Below, in pieces: positions 46,139 to 55,454 of a stretch of DNA of 64,000 nt. The stretch covers positions 62,001 to 126,000 of the forward strand of contig NZ_FQYM01000004.1 in assembly GCF_900141705.1 (NCBI RefSeq). The letters run 5' to 3'. The translations under genes and the position numbers were made by a program. Positions within the stretch are counted from its first letter, which is position 1, and the number at the start of each line of letters is the position of its first letter. The notes under the pieces were generated by a model. It was not told the DNA's origin and searched no databases. It was given only the letters and a program-made list of their open reading frames with translations. Source of the DNA: Fibrobacter sp. UWP2 (GTDB lineage: Bacteria > Fibrobacterota > Fibrobacteria > Fibrobacterales > Fibrobacteraceae).

Positions 46139-46195
46139 GGTAGTGACAAATGTGGTGAAGGTCGCGACCTCATGCCTCCTGCGTATTATACGGAA

Positions 46196-46312
46196 TGTAT
46201 AGTATTTTGTTTTTTATATTAAAATTATTGTAAAAAACAGTGTTTTTGTGTAAAACTAATTGATTTTGTATAGTATTAGTATATTGACTTTAAAGAAATA
46301 AAAACGTATATT
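46196..46312 (+). promoter_or_regulatory. AT-rich control region of the TIGR02147 operon
   Basis: TGTATAGTATT occurs twice in the same direction (46196-46206 and 46267-46277). A related GTATTATAC-like element lies near 46182 and again overlapping the start (GTATATTATAC). The -10 TATATT at 46307-46312 ends 7 nt before the ATG, so the message is probably leaderless. The repeats are candidate operator sites, perhaps for autoregulation. Confidence 0.45.
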
Positions 46313-46319
46313 ATACAGT

Positions 46320-47153
46320 ATGAAACCGATACTCGAATATAAGGATTACCGCCTGTATATACAGGACTACTACGACGAGCGCAAACGCTTGGGTGCGTTC
46401 TCGTGGCGCGAGTTCTGCAAGAGCGCCGGTTTTACGTCGCCGAATTTTTTGCAGCTCGTGTGCAAGGGCGAAAGCAAGCTGGGCAAACCGAAAATCGAGA
46501 ATGTCGCCTGTGCCATGGGGCTTGTCGGCTACGAAAAGGATTATTTCCGCGAGATGGTCACGTTCGGGAACGCCAAGAAGGATTCCGTGAAGAAGGCTGC
46601 GCTGCTCGAAATGCAGAAGATAGCCTTGGAACACAAGGTGCGCGTTGTTGACGGTGACGCTTTCCAGTATTATGAATCCTGGAAGTATCCTGTATTGAGG
46701 GAACTTGTCCCGATGATGCCGGGCGCCAATCCGCGCGATATCGCCGACGAGTGCAAGGAGCACGTGTCCGCCGAAGAGGTGCGCGATATCCTGAACTTTT
46801 TGGTCAAGGCCGGATTCCTGAAGAAGGACGGGGAGAAGGTCTATTCGCAGACGGAACAGGTGGTCATCGGTTCCAAGGAGGCGTTGCCGCTCGCAATCCG
46901 TGCGATGCACAAGGAAATGGCCAACATGGCGGCACGAGCCGTAGACCGCTATTCTCCAAGCGAACGCCATTTTACCGGGGTGACGCTCGGCGTGAACGAG
47001 GAAGCCTACGGCAGGATAGCAAGCGAACTCGACGCCTGTTGCAAGAAGGTGCTTTCCATCGCGAACGAATACAGGGACCAGGATCAGGTCTGCCGAATCA
47101 ATTTCCAGTTTTTCCCTGTTACGGACAAGGTCAAGGAGGCTCGCCATGTTTAA
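46320..47153 (+). CDS. TIGR02147 (DUF4423) family protein, putative regulator
   Basis: 277 residues. It matches the TIGR02147 family, largely confined to Fibrobacter as far as I know: start PILEYKDYRLYIQDYYDERK, then SWREFCKSAGFTSPNFLQLV (helix-turn-helix-like), a winged-helix-like AEEVRDILNFLVKAGFLKK, and a late ERHFTGVTLGVNEEAY block. The HTH reading is inferred; members are often next to surface or lipoprotein genes. Here it heads an operon with three lipoproteins; its end overlaps the next start by 8 nt. AT-rich upstream repeats suggest self-control. Confidence 0.88.
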   Translation: MKPILEYKDYRLYIQDYYDERKRLGAFSWREFCKSAGFTSPNFLQLVCKGESKLGKPKIENVACAMGLVGYEKDYFREMVTFGNAKKDSVKKAALLEMQKIALEHKVRVVDGDAFQYYESWKYPVLRELVPMMPGANPRDIADECKEHVSAEEVRDILNFLVKAGFLKKDGEKVYSQTEQVVIGSKEALPLAIRAMHKEMANMAARAVDRYSPSERHFTGVTLGVNEEAYGRIASELDACCKKVLSIANEYRDQDQVCRINFQFFPVTDKVKEARHV

Positions 47154-47907
47154 CAAATTCTCCTTTGCCGTGGGGGCTCTTTTTGCTGTGTTTGTGACTG
47201 CGTGTTCCGGTAACGATGCCGGCGATATCGCGGGCGGCACCATCGATCCCAATACCGTTGCAGAGAATAACAGTTCTTCGGATGCAGCCGATATCGAGTC
47301 GAGCAACAGTGCTGACGTCGTTTTGAGTTCGAGCGAAAAAAAGGTTCTTTCGAGTTCGTCGAGTAGGGATGCGAATGATGGCAGTCATACCATAAGAATC
47401 GAGAGTAGCTCAAGTGGGCGTTCTGCTATAGAAAGCAGCAGTTCGTGCGAGGGCTGCGGCAATGGCATTGATCCGATTGATATTTCCTCGTCTTCTTCTG
47501 AACTTCGCGATGGCGATATTGCGCATGCGGGCGATTTCTCCATCCAGTGTCTTGCCGATGTAATCAATGTGGACATGGCTGTCCCCGTCGTCGCACCGGA
47601 TGTCGCTGGCCCTGAGGCGTTCAAGCATGTCGATGGCGACTCCGTGAAATTTGTCTTGCAGAATGTCTATTTCGCTATCCCTTGCGAGGAGGATGCCCGG
47701 AAGCAGTTCTTGCAGGGCGTAAACGAAGGCGGCCCGGTTGTCAGTAGTGAAGGCGATAGGCTGTATGTGAATTTTAGCCGGAGCAAGGGCTGGGATTACG
47801 GTTGTGAATGTGTGGCGAAGGCCACGTTCACGCTCGGCAAGGCTTATTCCGGTATCAACTACACGGTTTTTGACCAGAAGGAAACCCTTCCGGTACAGGA
47901 AAATTAA
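47146..47907 (+). CDS. lipoprotein with one copy of a four-Cys domain
   Basis: 253 residues. Lipoprotein signal with lipobox VTAC (MFNKFSFAVGALFAVFVTAC). Residues ~20-110 are a Ser-rich linker (SSSSRD, SSSSGRS types) usual for Fibrobacter exported proteins. The C-terminal ~125 residues carry the domain shared with the two following genes: first Cys in FSIQCLAD, second in YFAIPCEEDA, a GDRLYVNF strand, then CEC and a final FTLGKAYSG-YTVFDQ. It starts inside the end of the TIGR02147 gene (8-nt overlap). Function unknown. Confidence 0.8.
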   Translation: MFNKFSFAVGALFAVFVTACSGNDAGDIAGGTIDPNTVAENNSSSDAADIESSNSADVVLSSSEKKVLSSSSSRDANDGSHTIRIESSSSGRSAIESSSSCEGCGNGIDPIDISSSSSELRDGDIAHAGDFSIQCLADVINVDMAVPVVAPDVAGPEAFKHVDGDSVKFVLQNVYFAIPCEEDARKQFLQGVNEGGPVVSSEGDRLYVNFSRSKGWDYGCECVAKATFTLGKAYSGINYTVFDQKETLPVQEN

Positions 47908-47922
47908 AAGAAGGAGGCCATC

Positions 47923-49452
47923 ATGAAAAAGATACTTGCAACAGCTGCGGCCCTGTCGCTTATGCTCATTGCCTGCGGGGACGAATCGTCTTCGACGGGC
48001 CCTGACCATCAGTCCACTGGCGATATCTCGTCTGTGACGGAATCGTCGTCTAGTATCGGCACGGGGGAATCCTCCAGTTCGGTGCTCGATTCCTTGCGGA
48101 ATGTGAACATGAAATTCAAAGGTTGCTACGAAAGCTCGTATAACCAATCCGCCTTGCTGAAAGAGGGCGAAACTGATGAAATGCCCAAGGCCTATTTGTA
48201 CGAGAACGGTGGCAAATATCAACTGATGATTCCGAAAGTATATGACTATTGCGGATTTGAAAAAGTGATGATGGACGTAGGGCGTTCTGGCGACACGCTA
48301 ACGCTCGATGTCAAGGCGATGATTCCGACGGCATGCATGTGCACGAGCGACCATTGGTTCGACATAGACGCAAGTGATGCGGACATCAATTTCTTTGCGC
48401 TCAAGCTTTACAATAAAAAAATGCAGGTGTACGAAGTGGTTCCTGGCCCGGCGCCAGAAGACCCGCCCCTGTCTAGCGGCATAGAATCTTCGTCTAGCGG
48501 CGCTGAGTCCTCTTCGTCCTTTGCGCTCCCCGTCGAATCGTCTTCGTCTGTGTCGGCGAAAAGTTCGTCGTCTGTGGCAAAAGTTGCGGACAAGCACCAG
48601 TTCGTAACGGATGCCAATGCCCAGTGCCTTGCGAATGGCGTGGTGGACGACCCCCTGGTGGATGGCAATCTGGACGTCGTTCCGGTAGATACGGTGCGCG
48701 TTCGTGAAGAAAATCTCCCTCCAGTTGCCCTTCGCTACGTCGGTACCGAACGGACCGGCTTTACATTGGAAAACCTTTCGCTTACCTGCGGTGCTGAACT
48801 TGATACCCTCGATGTCGATGTGTCCGGCGATACGGTTTACGTGAAGGCGAAATTCGACAACACGAATGCGCAGAGGTGCATTTGTAATTCCAAGGTGGAC
48901 TTTGCCGTGGAAAATAATCCGGCCTACGGGCATGCGACAGTTCTTGTTTTCGACAATGTTGCCGGTTCCAATCCAAACACTATGGAAATTGTCGATATGA
49001 GCGTGGTTACGGTTGAAGAAATAACGGGACACAGGCTGGCGAAGGATATTAAGTTGGAATGCAAAAACGACAGGCAAACGGCCAATGCGCCGGCGCTGGC
49101 AGGCAATTCACTGGTCATGGACCCGATTGATACGACGTCGACCAAAGTGGCTGTTGCAGGCCGTAGAGTGGGCGACGATGGCTTCGATACCATCGTCATT
49201 CCTGAAGTGATGATGCCTTGCGCGATTGTTTTTGAAAGCTTTGATGTCTATGCGGACAATGGAACGCTGTATGTCAAACCGAAAGTCGATCCGGACAGCC
49301 CGATAACCAATTGCATTTGCCCGACACGAGTGTCCTTCAAGGTGGAACAGAACGAGGCGTTCTCCAATGCGAATTATCTCGTGTTTGACAGGGAAGAACC
49401 GATGCCCTTGGTGAATTCCGTTCCCTTTGATGCGTCTGTTCTTAAGGATTAA
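47923..49452 (+). CDS. lipoprotein with three copies of the four-Cys domain
   Basis: 509 residues. Lipobox LIAC (ALSLMLIACGDES), Ser-rich linkers at ~22-55 and ~185-220. Domain copies at about 60-175 (CYESS, YDYCGFEKV, CMC), 225-345 (NAQCLANG, SLTCGAELD, GDTVYVKAKF, CIC) and 365-490 (LECKND, MPCAIVFES, GTLYVKPKV, CIC, YLVFDREE). Each keeps one early Cys, one middle Cys and a CxC pair. GGAGG lies upstream of the ATG. Middle gene of the operon; 15 nt from the gene before. Confidence 0.8.
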   Translation: MKKILATAAALSLMLIACGDESSSTGPDHQSTGDISSVTESSSSIGTGESSSSVLDSLRNVNMKFKGCYESSYNQSALLKEGETDEMPKAYLYENGGKYQLMIPKVYDYCGFEKVMMDVGRSGDTLTLDVKAMIPTACMCTSDHWFDIDASDADINFFALKLYNKKMQVYEVVPGPAPEDPPLSSGIESSSSGAESSSSFALPVESSSSVSAKSSSSVAKVADKHQFVTDANAQCLANGVVDDPLVDGNLDVVPVDTVRVREENLPPVALRYVGTERTGFTLENLSLTCGAELDTLDVDVSGDTVYVKAKFDNTNAQRCICNSKVDFAVENNPAYGHATVLVFDNVAGSNPNTMEIVDMSVVTVEEITGHRLAKDIKLECKNDRQTANAPALAGNSLVMDPIDTTSTKVAVAGRRVGDDGFDTIVIPEVMMPCAIVFESFDVYADNGTLYVKPKVDPDSPITNCICPTRVSFKVEQNEAFSNANYLVFDREEPMPLVNSVPFDASVLKD

Positions 49453-49483
49453 TCTTTGACATAAAATCAAGATGGAAAATGAT

Positions 49484-50632
49484 ATGAAAAAAATTTTTGC
49501 TTGCGCTGCTGCGCTTTCGTTTATGATTGTTGCCTGCGGGGACGATTCTTCTTCCGGGCCGGAGCCCGTTGCCGGGGTTGAAAGCTCTTCTGCCGGGCAG
49601 GACTTGTCTTCTGCTACAAACAATCCTTCATCGAGCGGGGCGAATCCGTTATCAAGCGTGAGTGTGGAATCCTCTTCGGCAATGAATCCCGCATCGAGCG
49701 AGACTGTTAAATCGTCCAGTTCGCAGGGAACGTCGTCTGCGGTGCAGCCGGGACAGTCTTCTTCCAGTTTGACTCCGCCGGGTTCGTCTTCTAGCGTGAC
49801 TCCGCAGAGCTCCTCGTCCAACGTGACACCGCCGAGTTCATCTTCGCGCCCGAGCTACAACGGTCCCGTACCGCTCAGAAGCATCAAGGCGACCTGCCGG
49901 GAAGAAGTTTGGACGAATGATCCGGTTGAACCCGAGCCGCCTGCAGCGTTTTACAGTGTCTCCAACAGCTTCGCGCAAATCGACATGCTCAATGTCAAGT
50001 TGACCTACGCCTGCGATTCCGCCTTGCAGAAGGCTTTCTTTGATAGCCTGAAGGCAGACAATACCGTGGCATCGGTCATCGGGGATACTCTCTTTGTGAA
50101 TATCGACCATTCCGGTGAGAAGGGCGTGAAACTCGAGTGCGGCTGCACGGCCGATGTGAAATTCACGTTTGATGAACAATATGCCGGATTTGGCTATACG
50201 GCGTTCGAGAACAACAGGCCTCCGCTCGAGCTAGGATATAAACTGATTAATCAGCCGGATCGGGGCTACCAGAAGATTGAAAAGGCCGATGCGCAGTGTA
50301 ACAAGAGCGGTCTGGACGATCCGATGGTAGATGCCGCCTTGCCGCCCGTGGCGCACATGTACGTGAACGGCGATTCTGCGCAGATAGTCATTGAAGAAGT
50401 CGTGCTTACCTGCGGAACGGTATTCGAGAGCGTTGCAATTGAGATGAGGGACTCCACGCTCTACGTGACTCCGCATTACGATACTTCGCTCCCGCAGGCC
50501 GATTGCCTCTGCAGGTCGAAGGTCAGTTTCAATATCAAGGCGTTGGACCTGTATAAAGAAGCGACTTTGCTGGTCTATGACGACGGCACGAGCTTCAATC
50601 TCAGCAACAAGATGCGCCTGATAGTGGAATAG
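49484..50632 (+). CDS. lipoprotein with two copies of the four-Cys domain
   Basis: 382 residues from ATG 49484 (four codons inside the longest frame), where the signal peptide MKKIFACAAALSFMIVACGD begins; lipobox IVAC. A long Ser-rich linker covers ~20-125 with units such as SSSLTPPGSSSSV. Two domain copies follow: ~130-250 (KATCREEV, LTYACDSAL, GDTLFVNI, CGC) and ~265-380 (DAQCNKSG, VLTCGTVFES, STLYVTPHY, CLC, LLVYDDG). It is the last gene of the operon; the next gene has its own promoter overlapping this stop. Confidence 0.8.
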   Translation: MKKIFACAAALSFMIVACGDDSSSGPEPVAGVESSSAGQDLSSATNNPSSSGANPLSSVSVESSSAMNPASSETVKSSSSQGTSSAVQPGQSSSSLTPPGSSSSVTPQSSSSNVTPPSSSSRPSYNGPVPLRSIKATCREEVWTNDPVEPEPPAAFYSVSNSFAQIDMLNVKLTYACDSALQKAFFDSLKADNTVASVIGDTLFVNIDHSGEKGVKLECGCTADVKFTFDEQYAGFGYTAFENNRPPLELGYKLINQPDRGYQKIEKADAQCNKSGLDDPMVDAALPPVAHMYVNGDSAQIVIEEVVLTCGTVFESVAIEMRDSTLYVTPHYDTSLPQADCLCRSKVSFNIKALDLYKEATLLVYDDGTSFNLSNKMRLIVE

Positions 50633-50649: not shown

Positions 50650-51384
50650 ATGAAATACACAGACGAAGCAAAACAGAATTTCAAGGCCCTCTCCAACAAC
50701 CCGTATCCCGGACGCGGAATTATCCTCGGTGAAAGTGCCGACGGCAAGTCCTACGTGCAGGTCTACTGGATCATGGGCCGTAGCGTCAACAGCCGCAATC
50801 GCGTGTTCGAAATTGAACCGAAGACCGGCTTCATGAAGACCAAGGCCTTCGACGAATCCAAGCTCACCGACCCGCACCTGATTATCTACTACCCGGCACG
50901 TCACACCGCCGACGTGCAGATTATCACGAACGGCGACCAGACCGACACGATTTACGACGCCATCAAGCTCGGCGGCACTTTCGAAAGCGCCCTCCGCACG
51001 CGCCAGTACGAAGACGACGCCCCGAACTTCACGCCGCGCATCTCCGGCATCCACTACAAGAACGCCAGCCCCGCCGTTTACAAGCTCTCCATCCTCAAGA
51101 GCCGTAACAACAGCGAAGAAGCCGGTTGCGAGCGCATGACGTTCGAATACGAGAAGGCCCTGCCGGGTCTCGGCCACTTCATCAGCACCTACGAAACCGA
51201 TGGCAGCCCGATTCCGAGCTTCAACGGCTTCCCGAAACTGATGCCGATTTTTGACAACGCCGAAGACACGCTCAAAAAATACTGGGCCGCCCTGAACAAG
51301 GACAACAAGGTTTCCCTGATGGTCAAGTGGATCGACAAGAAGACCTTCAAGGCCAAGACGCTTATCGTGAATAAGAATAAGTAA
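50650..51384 (+). CDS. purO: PurO-type IMP cyclohydrolase
   Basis: 244 residues. The opening ALSNNPYPGRGIILGESADG and YWIMGRSVNSRNRVF are characteristic of the PurO family, first known from archaea. It closes the FAICAR ring to IMP in the last purine step, a job done by the C-terminal half of PurH in most bacteria. Other blocks: PHLIIYYPARH, TRQYEDDAPNFTPRISG. No other purine genes are nearby. A leaderless promoter precedes it. The call rests on the N-terminal signature and overall length. Confidence 0.88.
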   Translation: MKYTDEAKQNFKALSNNPYPGRGIILGESADGKSYVQVYWIMGRSVNSRNRVFEIEPKTGFMKTKAFDESKLTDPHLIIYYPARHTADVQIITNGDQTDTIYDAIKLGGTFESALRTRQYEDDAPNFTPRISGIHYKNASPAVYKLSILKSRNNSEEAGCERMTFEYEKALPGLGHFISTYETDGSPIPSFNGFPKLMPIFDNAEDTLKKYWAALNKDNKVSLMVKWIDKKTFKAKTLIVNKNK

Positions 51385-53729: not shown

Positions 53730-55454
53730 ATGCGTAAAATCTTGACCGGTTGTATCTTGACTGCCTTGCTTGCCTCTTGCTCAGGCGAGGATGACTCCAT
53801 TACACTCAAAGACCCGCTGTCCAAGGAAGTCAATACCATTTACGACTTGGGCAAATGTACCGATTCGCGTAAGGGCGAGTTTGTCTATGTCGTGGAAGAT
53901 GAGGTGGACTATTTCTGTTATTCCGGGAAATGGATCCGCGAAGACGAACTGGGGAAGGAATCGTCTTCTTCGGAGAAAGTGTCGTCGGACTCCGATGACG
54001 ATGAATCTTCTTCGAGCAAGGAATCGTCGAGTTCCGCAGACGACGAATCTTCTTCAAGCAAGGAATCGTCGAGTTTCGCAGACGACGAATCTTCTTCGAG
54101 CAAGGTGTCGTCGAGTTCCGCAGACGACGAATCTTCTTCGAGCAAGGAATCGTCGAGTTCCGCAGACGACAAGTCTTCTTCGAGCAAGGAATCGTCGAGT
54201 TCCGCAGGCGACAAGTCTTCTTCAAGCAAAGAATCGTCGAGTTCCGCAGACGACAAATCTTCTTCGTCGGCGAAATCGTCCAGCAGTTCCAAGACGCACG
54301 ATAGCAAGACTTTCGTGGATTCGCGTGACGGCAAAACGTACCGCATGGTGACTATCGGTTCGCAGACCTGGTTCGCAGAAAATCTTAACTACTATGGCGA
54401 TGACGTGACCGGCTTCTGCCATTCCGGCAAGCCCGAGAATTGCGAGAAGTACGGGATGCTCTACGATTGGGACGATGCCAAGAGGGCTTGCCCGACCGGG
54501 ACTCATCTGCCGACAATCGAAGAATTGCGGGAATTGATTGACTTTGTCGGGGAAGACAGCTCTGCGGTGGTGCTCATGGCCGATACCGGCTGGACAAGGG
54601 ACGACGGCTTCCTGGGTACGGATGAATACGGGTTTGCGATGCTCCCAGGCAGCTACAAGGCGGGGAGGAGTTACGGTTCATCGTTGGGATGGTGCTCTAA
54701 TATGTGGACCGCATCGGATAGCGCCGGCCTAGTATACGCGGCGTATCTAGGATGGAACCTGTCGAATGTCTCCATCGGGTTGTACAATCTGACTGATGGG
54801 TGGGGAATGTCTATCCGCTGCGTCGAGGGTGAACCAAAATCGTCGAGCTCCAGCAGCACTCCGGCTTCTTCCTCGTCAAGCTCTAGTGAAAAGAGCTCAT
54901 GGAAATTCCTGAACCCGGCATTTTCGTACGGACAGATGACCGACAGCCGTGATGGGCAGGTTTACAAGACGATCGTTGTCGATACGCTCACATGGATGGC
55001 CGAAAACCTGAACTATGAAACCGTCAACAGCTATTGTTTCAATGATACGGCTAAATATTGCGCTACATATGGACGCATGTATACATGGCCGGCTGCATTG
55101 AACGCTTGTCCCGAAGGTTGGCATTTGCCGACTTATAGCGAATTGAGCTACCTTGTTAAAGGGAAAGGTGGTGACAATCTTAGATCCAAGGCGGGGTGGA
55201 TTATAGTGAACGATGAAGATAGACCTGGTCTCGATGCGTATGGATTTTCGGCGAGTCCCGGTGGGAGACGGATATCAGCAGGGCGATATTTTGCTTTAGG
55301 TACGGAGGTAGGTTATTGGTCTGCTACCGAACATGAAGAGCACGACGACCGCGCTTGGAGTGTGGAATTTCATCAGAATGACCCGTACAGTATGTTAACG
55401 ACAGAATTTAAGGATTGGGCCTATTCTGTTCGCTGTGTGAAAGGCGCGAAGTAG
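53730..55454 (+). CDS. lipoprotein with Ser-rich linker and two TIGR02145 domains
   Basis: 574 residues. Lipobox LLASC (ILTALLASCSGEDD). A short module at ~35-75 ends YFCYSGKW, the pattern seen at the start of the GH5 fragment. Then a Ser/Asp/Lys/Glu linker (~78-190) of SSSSKESSSSADDE units coded by a 42-bp tandem repeat. TIGR02145 (Fib_succ_major) domain 1 at ~195-372 (DSRDGKTYRMVTIGSQTWFA, GTHLPTIEELREL, MSIRCVEG), a second Ser linker, and domain 2 at ~400-574 (DSRDGQVYKTI, WMAENLNYE, GWHLPTYSELSYL, YSVRCVKGAK). The family is abundant in Fibrobacter; function is not established. A TATATTT -10 precedes it. Confidence 0.9.
   Translation: MRKILTGCILTALLASCSGEDDSITLKDPLSKEVNTIYDLGKCTDSRKGEFVYVVEDEVDYFCYSGKWIREDELGKESSSSEKVSSDSDDDESSSSKESSSSADDESSSSKESSSFADDESSSSKVSSSSADDESSSSKESSSSADDKSSSSKESSSSAGDKSSSSKESSSSADDKSSSSAKSSSSSKTHDSKTFVDSRDGKTYRMVTIGSQTWFAENLNYYGDDVTGFCHSGKPENCEKYGMLYDWDDAKRACPTGTHLPTIEELRELIDFVGEDSSAVVLMADTGWTRDDGFLGTDEYGFAMLPGSYKAGRSYGSSLGWCSNMWTASDSAGLVYAAYLGWNLSNVSIGLYNLTDGWGMSIRCVEGEPKSSSSSSTPASSSSSSSEKSSWKFLNPAFSYGQMTDSRDGQVYKTIVVDTLTWMAENLNYETVNSYCFNDTAKYCATYGRMYTWPAALNACPEGWHLPTYSELSYLVKGKGGDNLRSKAGWIIVNDEDRPGLDAYGFSASPGGRRISAGRYFALGTEVGYWSATEHEEHDDRAWSVEFHQNDPYSMLTTEFKDWAYSVRCVKGAK
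54004..54270 (+). repeat. 42-bp minisatellite in the lipoprotein linker
   Basis: Units begin near 54004, 54046, 54088, 54130, 54172, 54214 and (partial) 54256. The core is GAATCTTCTTCGAGCAAGGA followed by ATCGTCGAGTTCCGCAGACG. The unit is a multiple of three, so copy-number change would alter linker length without a frameshift. Confidence 0.9.

Follow-up and report, generated by a model that had tools for sequence, protein, structure and literature searches.

The operon studied here lies within a window of 64,000 nucleotides (contig NZ_FQYM01000004.1) from the genome of Fibrobacter sp. UWP2, an assembly of 3.23 Mb in 72 contigs where genome-wide searches count 22 genes of the TIGR02147 family. 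Four open reading frames, all on the + strand, occupy positions 46320-50632, consisting of a TIGR02147 gene followed by three lipoprotein genes with one, three and two copies of a four-Cys domain, in agreement with the initial annotation (Table 1). The start of lipoprotein C may alternatively be an internal ATG at 49484 (MKKIF...).

Table 1. Features of the operon and of its upstream DNA (window positions).
Feature	Position	Strand	Basis
Dyad TATTATAC-N5-GTATAGTA, predicted TIGR02147 operator, 115 nt 5' of the ATG	46184..46204	.	conserved in orthologous operons
Third half-site GTATAGTA, at 71 bp from the dyad half it matches and 8 nt 5' of the -35	46268..46275	+	
-35-like TTGACT	46284..46289	+	upstream alignment
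-10-like TATATT, 17-bp spacer, 7 nt before the ATG	46307..46312	+	upstream alignment
TIGR02147 / DUF4423 protein, predicted helix-turn-helix autoregulator, helix SPNFLQLV	46320..47153	+	family matches, dyad comparison
AAGGAGG, ribosome-binding site of lipoprotein A, within the last codons of the regulator	47133..47139	+	sequence
Lipoprotein A, one four-Cys domain (47524-47898), overlaps the regulator by 8 nt	47146..47907	+	
Lipoprotein B, three four-Cys domains (48100-48429, 48601-48978, 49036-49413)	47923..49452	+	
Lipoprotein C, two four-Cys domains (49871-50233, 50261-50629)	49472..50632	+	

The overlap between the regulator and lipoprotein A, also described in the initial annotation, is real, measuring 8 nt in 14/15 orthologous operons and 11 nt in the remaining one, and the AAGGAGG placed inside the 3' codons of the regulator precedes the ATG of lipoprotein A by six nt. 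Comparison of these operons supports the regulator and lipoprotein A as a conserved, translationally coupled unit. The order of a TIGR02147 gene, a one-domain lipoprotein and then multi-domain lipoproteins recurs across many Fibrobacter genomes, which excludes a chance arrangement. Regarding their rates of change, the regulator has a median identity of 84% against 40% for the first lipoprotein domain (15 operons), and a dN/dS of 0.04 against 0.18-0.75 for the lipoproteins when compared to the closest relative, denoting a faster change of the lipoproteins and not positive selection, because few changes are involved.

All three lipoproteins start with a signal peptide ending in a lipobox (FVTACSG, LMLIACGD and FMIVACGD) and have Ser-rich linkers. 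As proposed, they differ in copy number and linker length, but also in insertions and in sequence subtype. Aligning the six domain copies leaves five invariant columns, namely C1, an Ala, both Cys of the CxC pair and a Phe; the mid Cys is present in 6/6 copies but shifts by 1-2 residues in the alignment. A profile built from the six copies recovers all of them at E 1.8e-37 or better, in addition to a weaker seventh copy at another locus (C1:72535). With a 48-copy profile, searched in 151 genomes sampled across the phylum and all within it, the domain was found in 60 of the 67 genus genomes listed; five genomes from other genera of the family also have it, and the remaining genomes gave no match at E 0.001. 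The domain is then frequent within Fibrobacter and infrequent in its sister genera, and this phylum sample gave no occurrence beyond the family; likewise, a short-pattern scan of the genome collection returned Fibrobacter loci only. The possibility that the domain occurs only beside TIGR02147 genes did not hold, as it is also encoded by genes without an adjacent one (L072, L077, L081, L097 and L102). The absence of a name, on the other hand, was borne out, since the domain has no consistent match among the Pfam, NCBIfam or PDB sequence families. AlphaFold2, given 48 sequences, predicts a confident all-beta fold (pLDDT 83.9, pTM 0.75), the model of which had no Foldseek match at E 0.001 among PDB and viral structures.

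The first gene encodes a full-length protein of the family TIGR02147 (Fsuc_second) / PF14394 DUF4423, as it matches TIGR02147 with 292.9 bits (cut-off 50) over model positions 1-271 of 272, and also DUF4423. A Pfam search yielded no helix-turn-helix match for this protein itself; weak matches of that type (HTH_3, HTH_31 and CYNS_N) fall on residues 11-73 of several TIGR02147 paralogues. Its structure model is poor and the fold is not usable. As counted by eye from the listing of gene neighbourhoods, 17/22 TIGR02147 genes of the genome stand before lipoproteins, nearly all of families other than four-Cys, the sibling cassettes comprising CarboxypepD_reg with LamG, Fib_succ_major and unnamed lipoproteins. 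The Fib_succ_major lipoproteins (PF09603) are likewise Fibrobacter lipoproteins, several of them coupled to TIGR02147 genes in UWP2; the four-Cys domain is different, having no match to PF09603. Judging by gene order, the general rule is a putative regulator plus a lipoprotein, with the four-Cys operon as one case, and TIGR02147 is best read as a predicted helix-turn-helix autoregulator of lipoprotein cassettes. In the open-access literature, no paper naming TIGR02147 and no described function of the family was found, only an annotation being met, nor was a paper found joining F. succinogenes, transcriptional regulator and autoregulation. In several genomes, closely related TIGR02147 genes stand in rows of four to five or more, approximately 3 kb apart (G071:C26, G067:C39, G061:C25 and G008:C6), a pattern to be expected from duplication of entire regulator-lipoprotein cassettes.

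When the orthologous upstream regions are aligned, they share the dyad TATTATAC-N5-GTATAATA, a TTTTGTATARTA half-site and the TTGACT and TATATT boxes, which resemble a sigma70 promoter. The dyad is unique in the UWP2 genome at two mismatches or fewer and is present in 39/61 genus genomes, or 25/29 good ones. A TIGR02147 start lies downstream of 28 of the 30 fetched sites, at 111-115 nt in 24 of these, and in each of the 21 upstream regions that have a recognisable third half-site, it lies 70-72 bp downstream of the dyad half to which it corresponds. The distance from the -10 box to the ATG is 7 nt in 17/19 upstream regions, and from this closeness a leaderless mRNA is predicted as probable. 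This closeness was noted at 46307-46320 and upstream of L172-L201; the -10 is about as close to the ATG in the clade with the helix SPVFLKLV, for which leaderless mRNAs are likewise predicted, and genes of the L052-type clade have a leader with AGGAGG instead. The regulator gene is absent at one locus, L090 (6498-7655), where the dyad, the half-site and the promoter are kept before a two-domain four-Cys lipoprotein; the chromosomal position is unchanged, with a gatB-like gene preceding it, and a complete operon is found elsewhere in that genome (L084). The dyad also precedes the stand-alone four-Cys gene of L070 and the second four-Cys gene of L141.

Another dyad, TATGCAAC-N5-GTTGCATA, with a matching half-site beside the -35, is found before certain four-Cys genes that have no regulator next to them. 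Dyads of this kind with a TTTTTGTTGCAT half-site were observed at L067, L072, L077, L081, L075 and L080, none of them with an adjacent dyad-matched regulator, and would point to trans-acting control by a TIGR02147 protein. Binding of such dyads by TIGR02147 proteins would predict the TATGCAAC dyad in front of TIGR02147 genes of another class too, as was indeed found: 11 of the 24 TATGCAAC sites lie 112-114 nt before a TIGR02147 gene, all encoding the helix S(S/P)SYMKVV, while 5/24 precede four-Cys genes and 8/24 have neither gene type nearby. The reversed pattern, used as a control for this dyad, gave no match. In addition, the genomes G001, G006, G026 and G074, which carry such four-Cys genes, encode TIGR02147 proteins of the YMKVV class.

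Sorted by helix, the dyad types are TATTATAC for SPN..LV, TATGCAAC for SSSYMKVV, TATGCTAC for SPSYMKVV and TATAGTAC for SPSYLKMV, so that, as far as comparison goes, each of the four classes pairs its predicted recognition helix with a half-site sequence of its own. One of the four types stands at 109-117 nt from 52/157 TIGR02147 genes against 0.17% of shuffles, in a sample for which some genes had been retrieved through their dyad; this raises the figure of 52 and leaves the pairing of helix and site unaffected. Many of the 157 genes have no dyad of this form, and the SPVFLKLV class presents TTGTATCAT repeats instead, mostly 74 bp apart. The regulator-like character given to the first gene in the initial annotation gains support from these upstream sites and from the helix that co-segregates with them.

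Taken as a whole, the locus is best explained as a self-regulated surface-lipoprotein cassette, with a probability of about 0.6. The TIGR02147 protein would be a cytoplasmic helix-turn-helix DNA-binding protein acting as a dimer, which would bind the dyad and, 70-72 bp further along next to the -35, the third half-site; bound in this way, it would probably loop the DNA or touch RNA polymerase, and would thereby control how its own gene and the lipoprotein genes translated after it are transcribed. Activation is slightly favoured over repression, because the half-site adjoins the -35. The three lipoproteins would then go to the outer membrane, displaying one to three disulphide-pinned beta-sandwich domains on Ser-rich stalks, a surface exposure suggested by these stalks and by the relatives. 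Such domains would most likely be binding or adhesion modules, as they are exported, repeated and apparently non-catalytic beta domains on stalks, and the domains of the sibling cassettes point in the same direction. A broader extension, possible although held at somewhat less than even odds, is that the large TIGR02147 family consists of autoregulators, every member driving a surface-lipoprotein cassette of its own by means of a private dyad, where a readable helix code and a conserved two-site promoter geometry of 70-74 bp would insulate paralogous circuits and let Fibrobacter choose its surface coat.

DNA binding by the TIGR02147 protein itself is predicted from the comparison of sequences, and dyads also stand before several four-Cys genes that no TIGR02147 gene adjoins; both points would also suit dyads bound by another regulator, with TIGR02147 as a target gene and not the binder. 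Nevertheless, the half-site co-varies with a short segment of the TIGR02147 helix in at least four classes, a pattern left unexplained by a third-party regulator, making this reading improbable. The chemistry of the domain was weighed in a similar way, as a metal or a disulphide site had been suggested at the CxC pair. The four Cys could hold a metal ion in a metal-dependent adhesin, considering that CxC pairs are common in metal sites and that 142/168 distinct copies (windowed count) retain all four. Comparison of the remaining copies disfavours it: C2 and C3 are both absent, with C1 and C4 kept, in 19/168 copies spread over several clearly different subtypes (WICY, SKC, MYC and ITLYC), so the four ligands are not conserved together. 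C2 alone is absent in none of the 168, C3 alone in 5 (4 of them with an alternative Cys pair nearby) and C4 in 2. Such a paired loss would break a four-Cys metal site, yet would remove just one of two disulphides, and the proteins are exported lipoproteins; a metal-binding role is then very improbable. Since C2 and C3 vanish together while C1 and C4 remain, the domain is predicted to be pinned by the disulphides C1-C4 and C2-C3, the second of the two suggestions.

Regarding the function of the lipoproteins, they could be the Fibrobacter counterpart of the NigD-like surface lipoproteins of Bacteroidota, acting as envelope or vesicle proteins under stress and not in ligand binding, with TIGR02147 sensing the state of the envelope. 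NigD proteins are surface lipoproteins within a stress sigma-factor regulon (PMC13114119), and NigD1 is required for vesicle overproduction (PMC13088901). The first six rows of the VIA-align comparison of the domain model are Bacteroides or Parabacteroides proteins (Z 4.6 to 2.7), two of them titled NigD-like, and a third NigD-like protein stands lower in the list. However, the best values, Z 4.6 with an rmsd of 3.5 over 95 residues (5bmt) and 4.0 (4pqx), fall within what the tool itself describes as noise; the resemblance of the modelled fold is suggestive only, and the operon genes have no match to NigD_C (PF17415, the C-terminal family of NigD-like lipoproteins) even at E 10. Both groups are lipoproteins, and the modelled fold may have a weak similarity over most of the domain; the four-Cys lipoproteins differ by their tandem copies on Ser-rich stalks and their four conserved Cys, as well as by the proposed control by TIGR02147 in place of a sigma/anti-sigma pair. 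LamG and Fib_succ_major in the sibling cassettes do not suggest stress either, and the NigD-like role is considered unlikely.

The regulatory result, meaning the candidate dyads, their spacings and the apparent match of helix to half-site, is new for TIGR02147, so far a family without a described function found, which here gains predicted operators and a putative recognition-helix code. Having likely operators with helix-matched half-sites makes this anonymous TIGR02147/DUF4423 family, with 22 copies in UWP2, directly testable, and as most copies precede lipoproteins, it offers an entry to the choice of surface display in a leading fibre-degrading gut genus. The four-Cys domain, with no name and with predicted disulphides, is a clean structural target. 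In a proteomic study of F. succinogenes S85, 40 of 49 quantified lipoproteins were lower on cellulose than on glucose, the present proteins not being identified there (PMC6851124).

As for the surroundings of the operon, a PF07826 IMP cyclohydrolase-like gene (50650-51384) comes directly after it and often holds the same place in relatives. An extension of the operon into this gene was considered, but the gene probably has its own, separate promoter, because a TATATT sits just 5' of it. Further downstream, positions 53730-55454 encode a large lipoprotein in which two Fib_succ_major stretches are combined with a long, repetitive linker rich in Ser and Asp.
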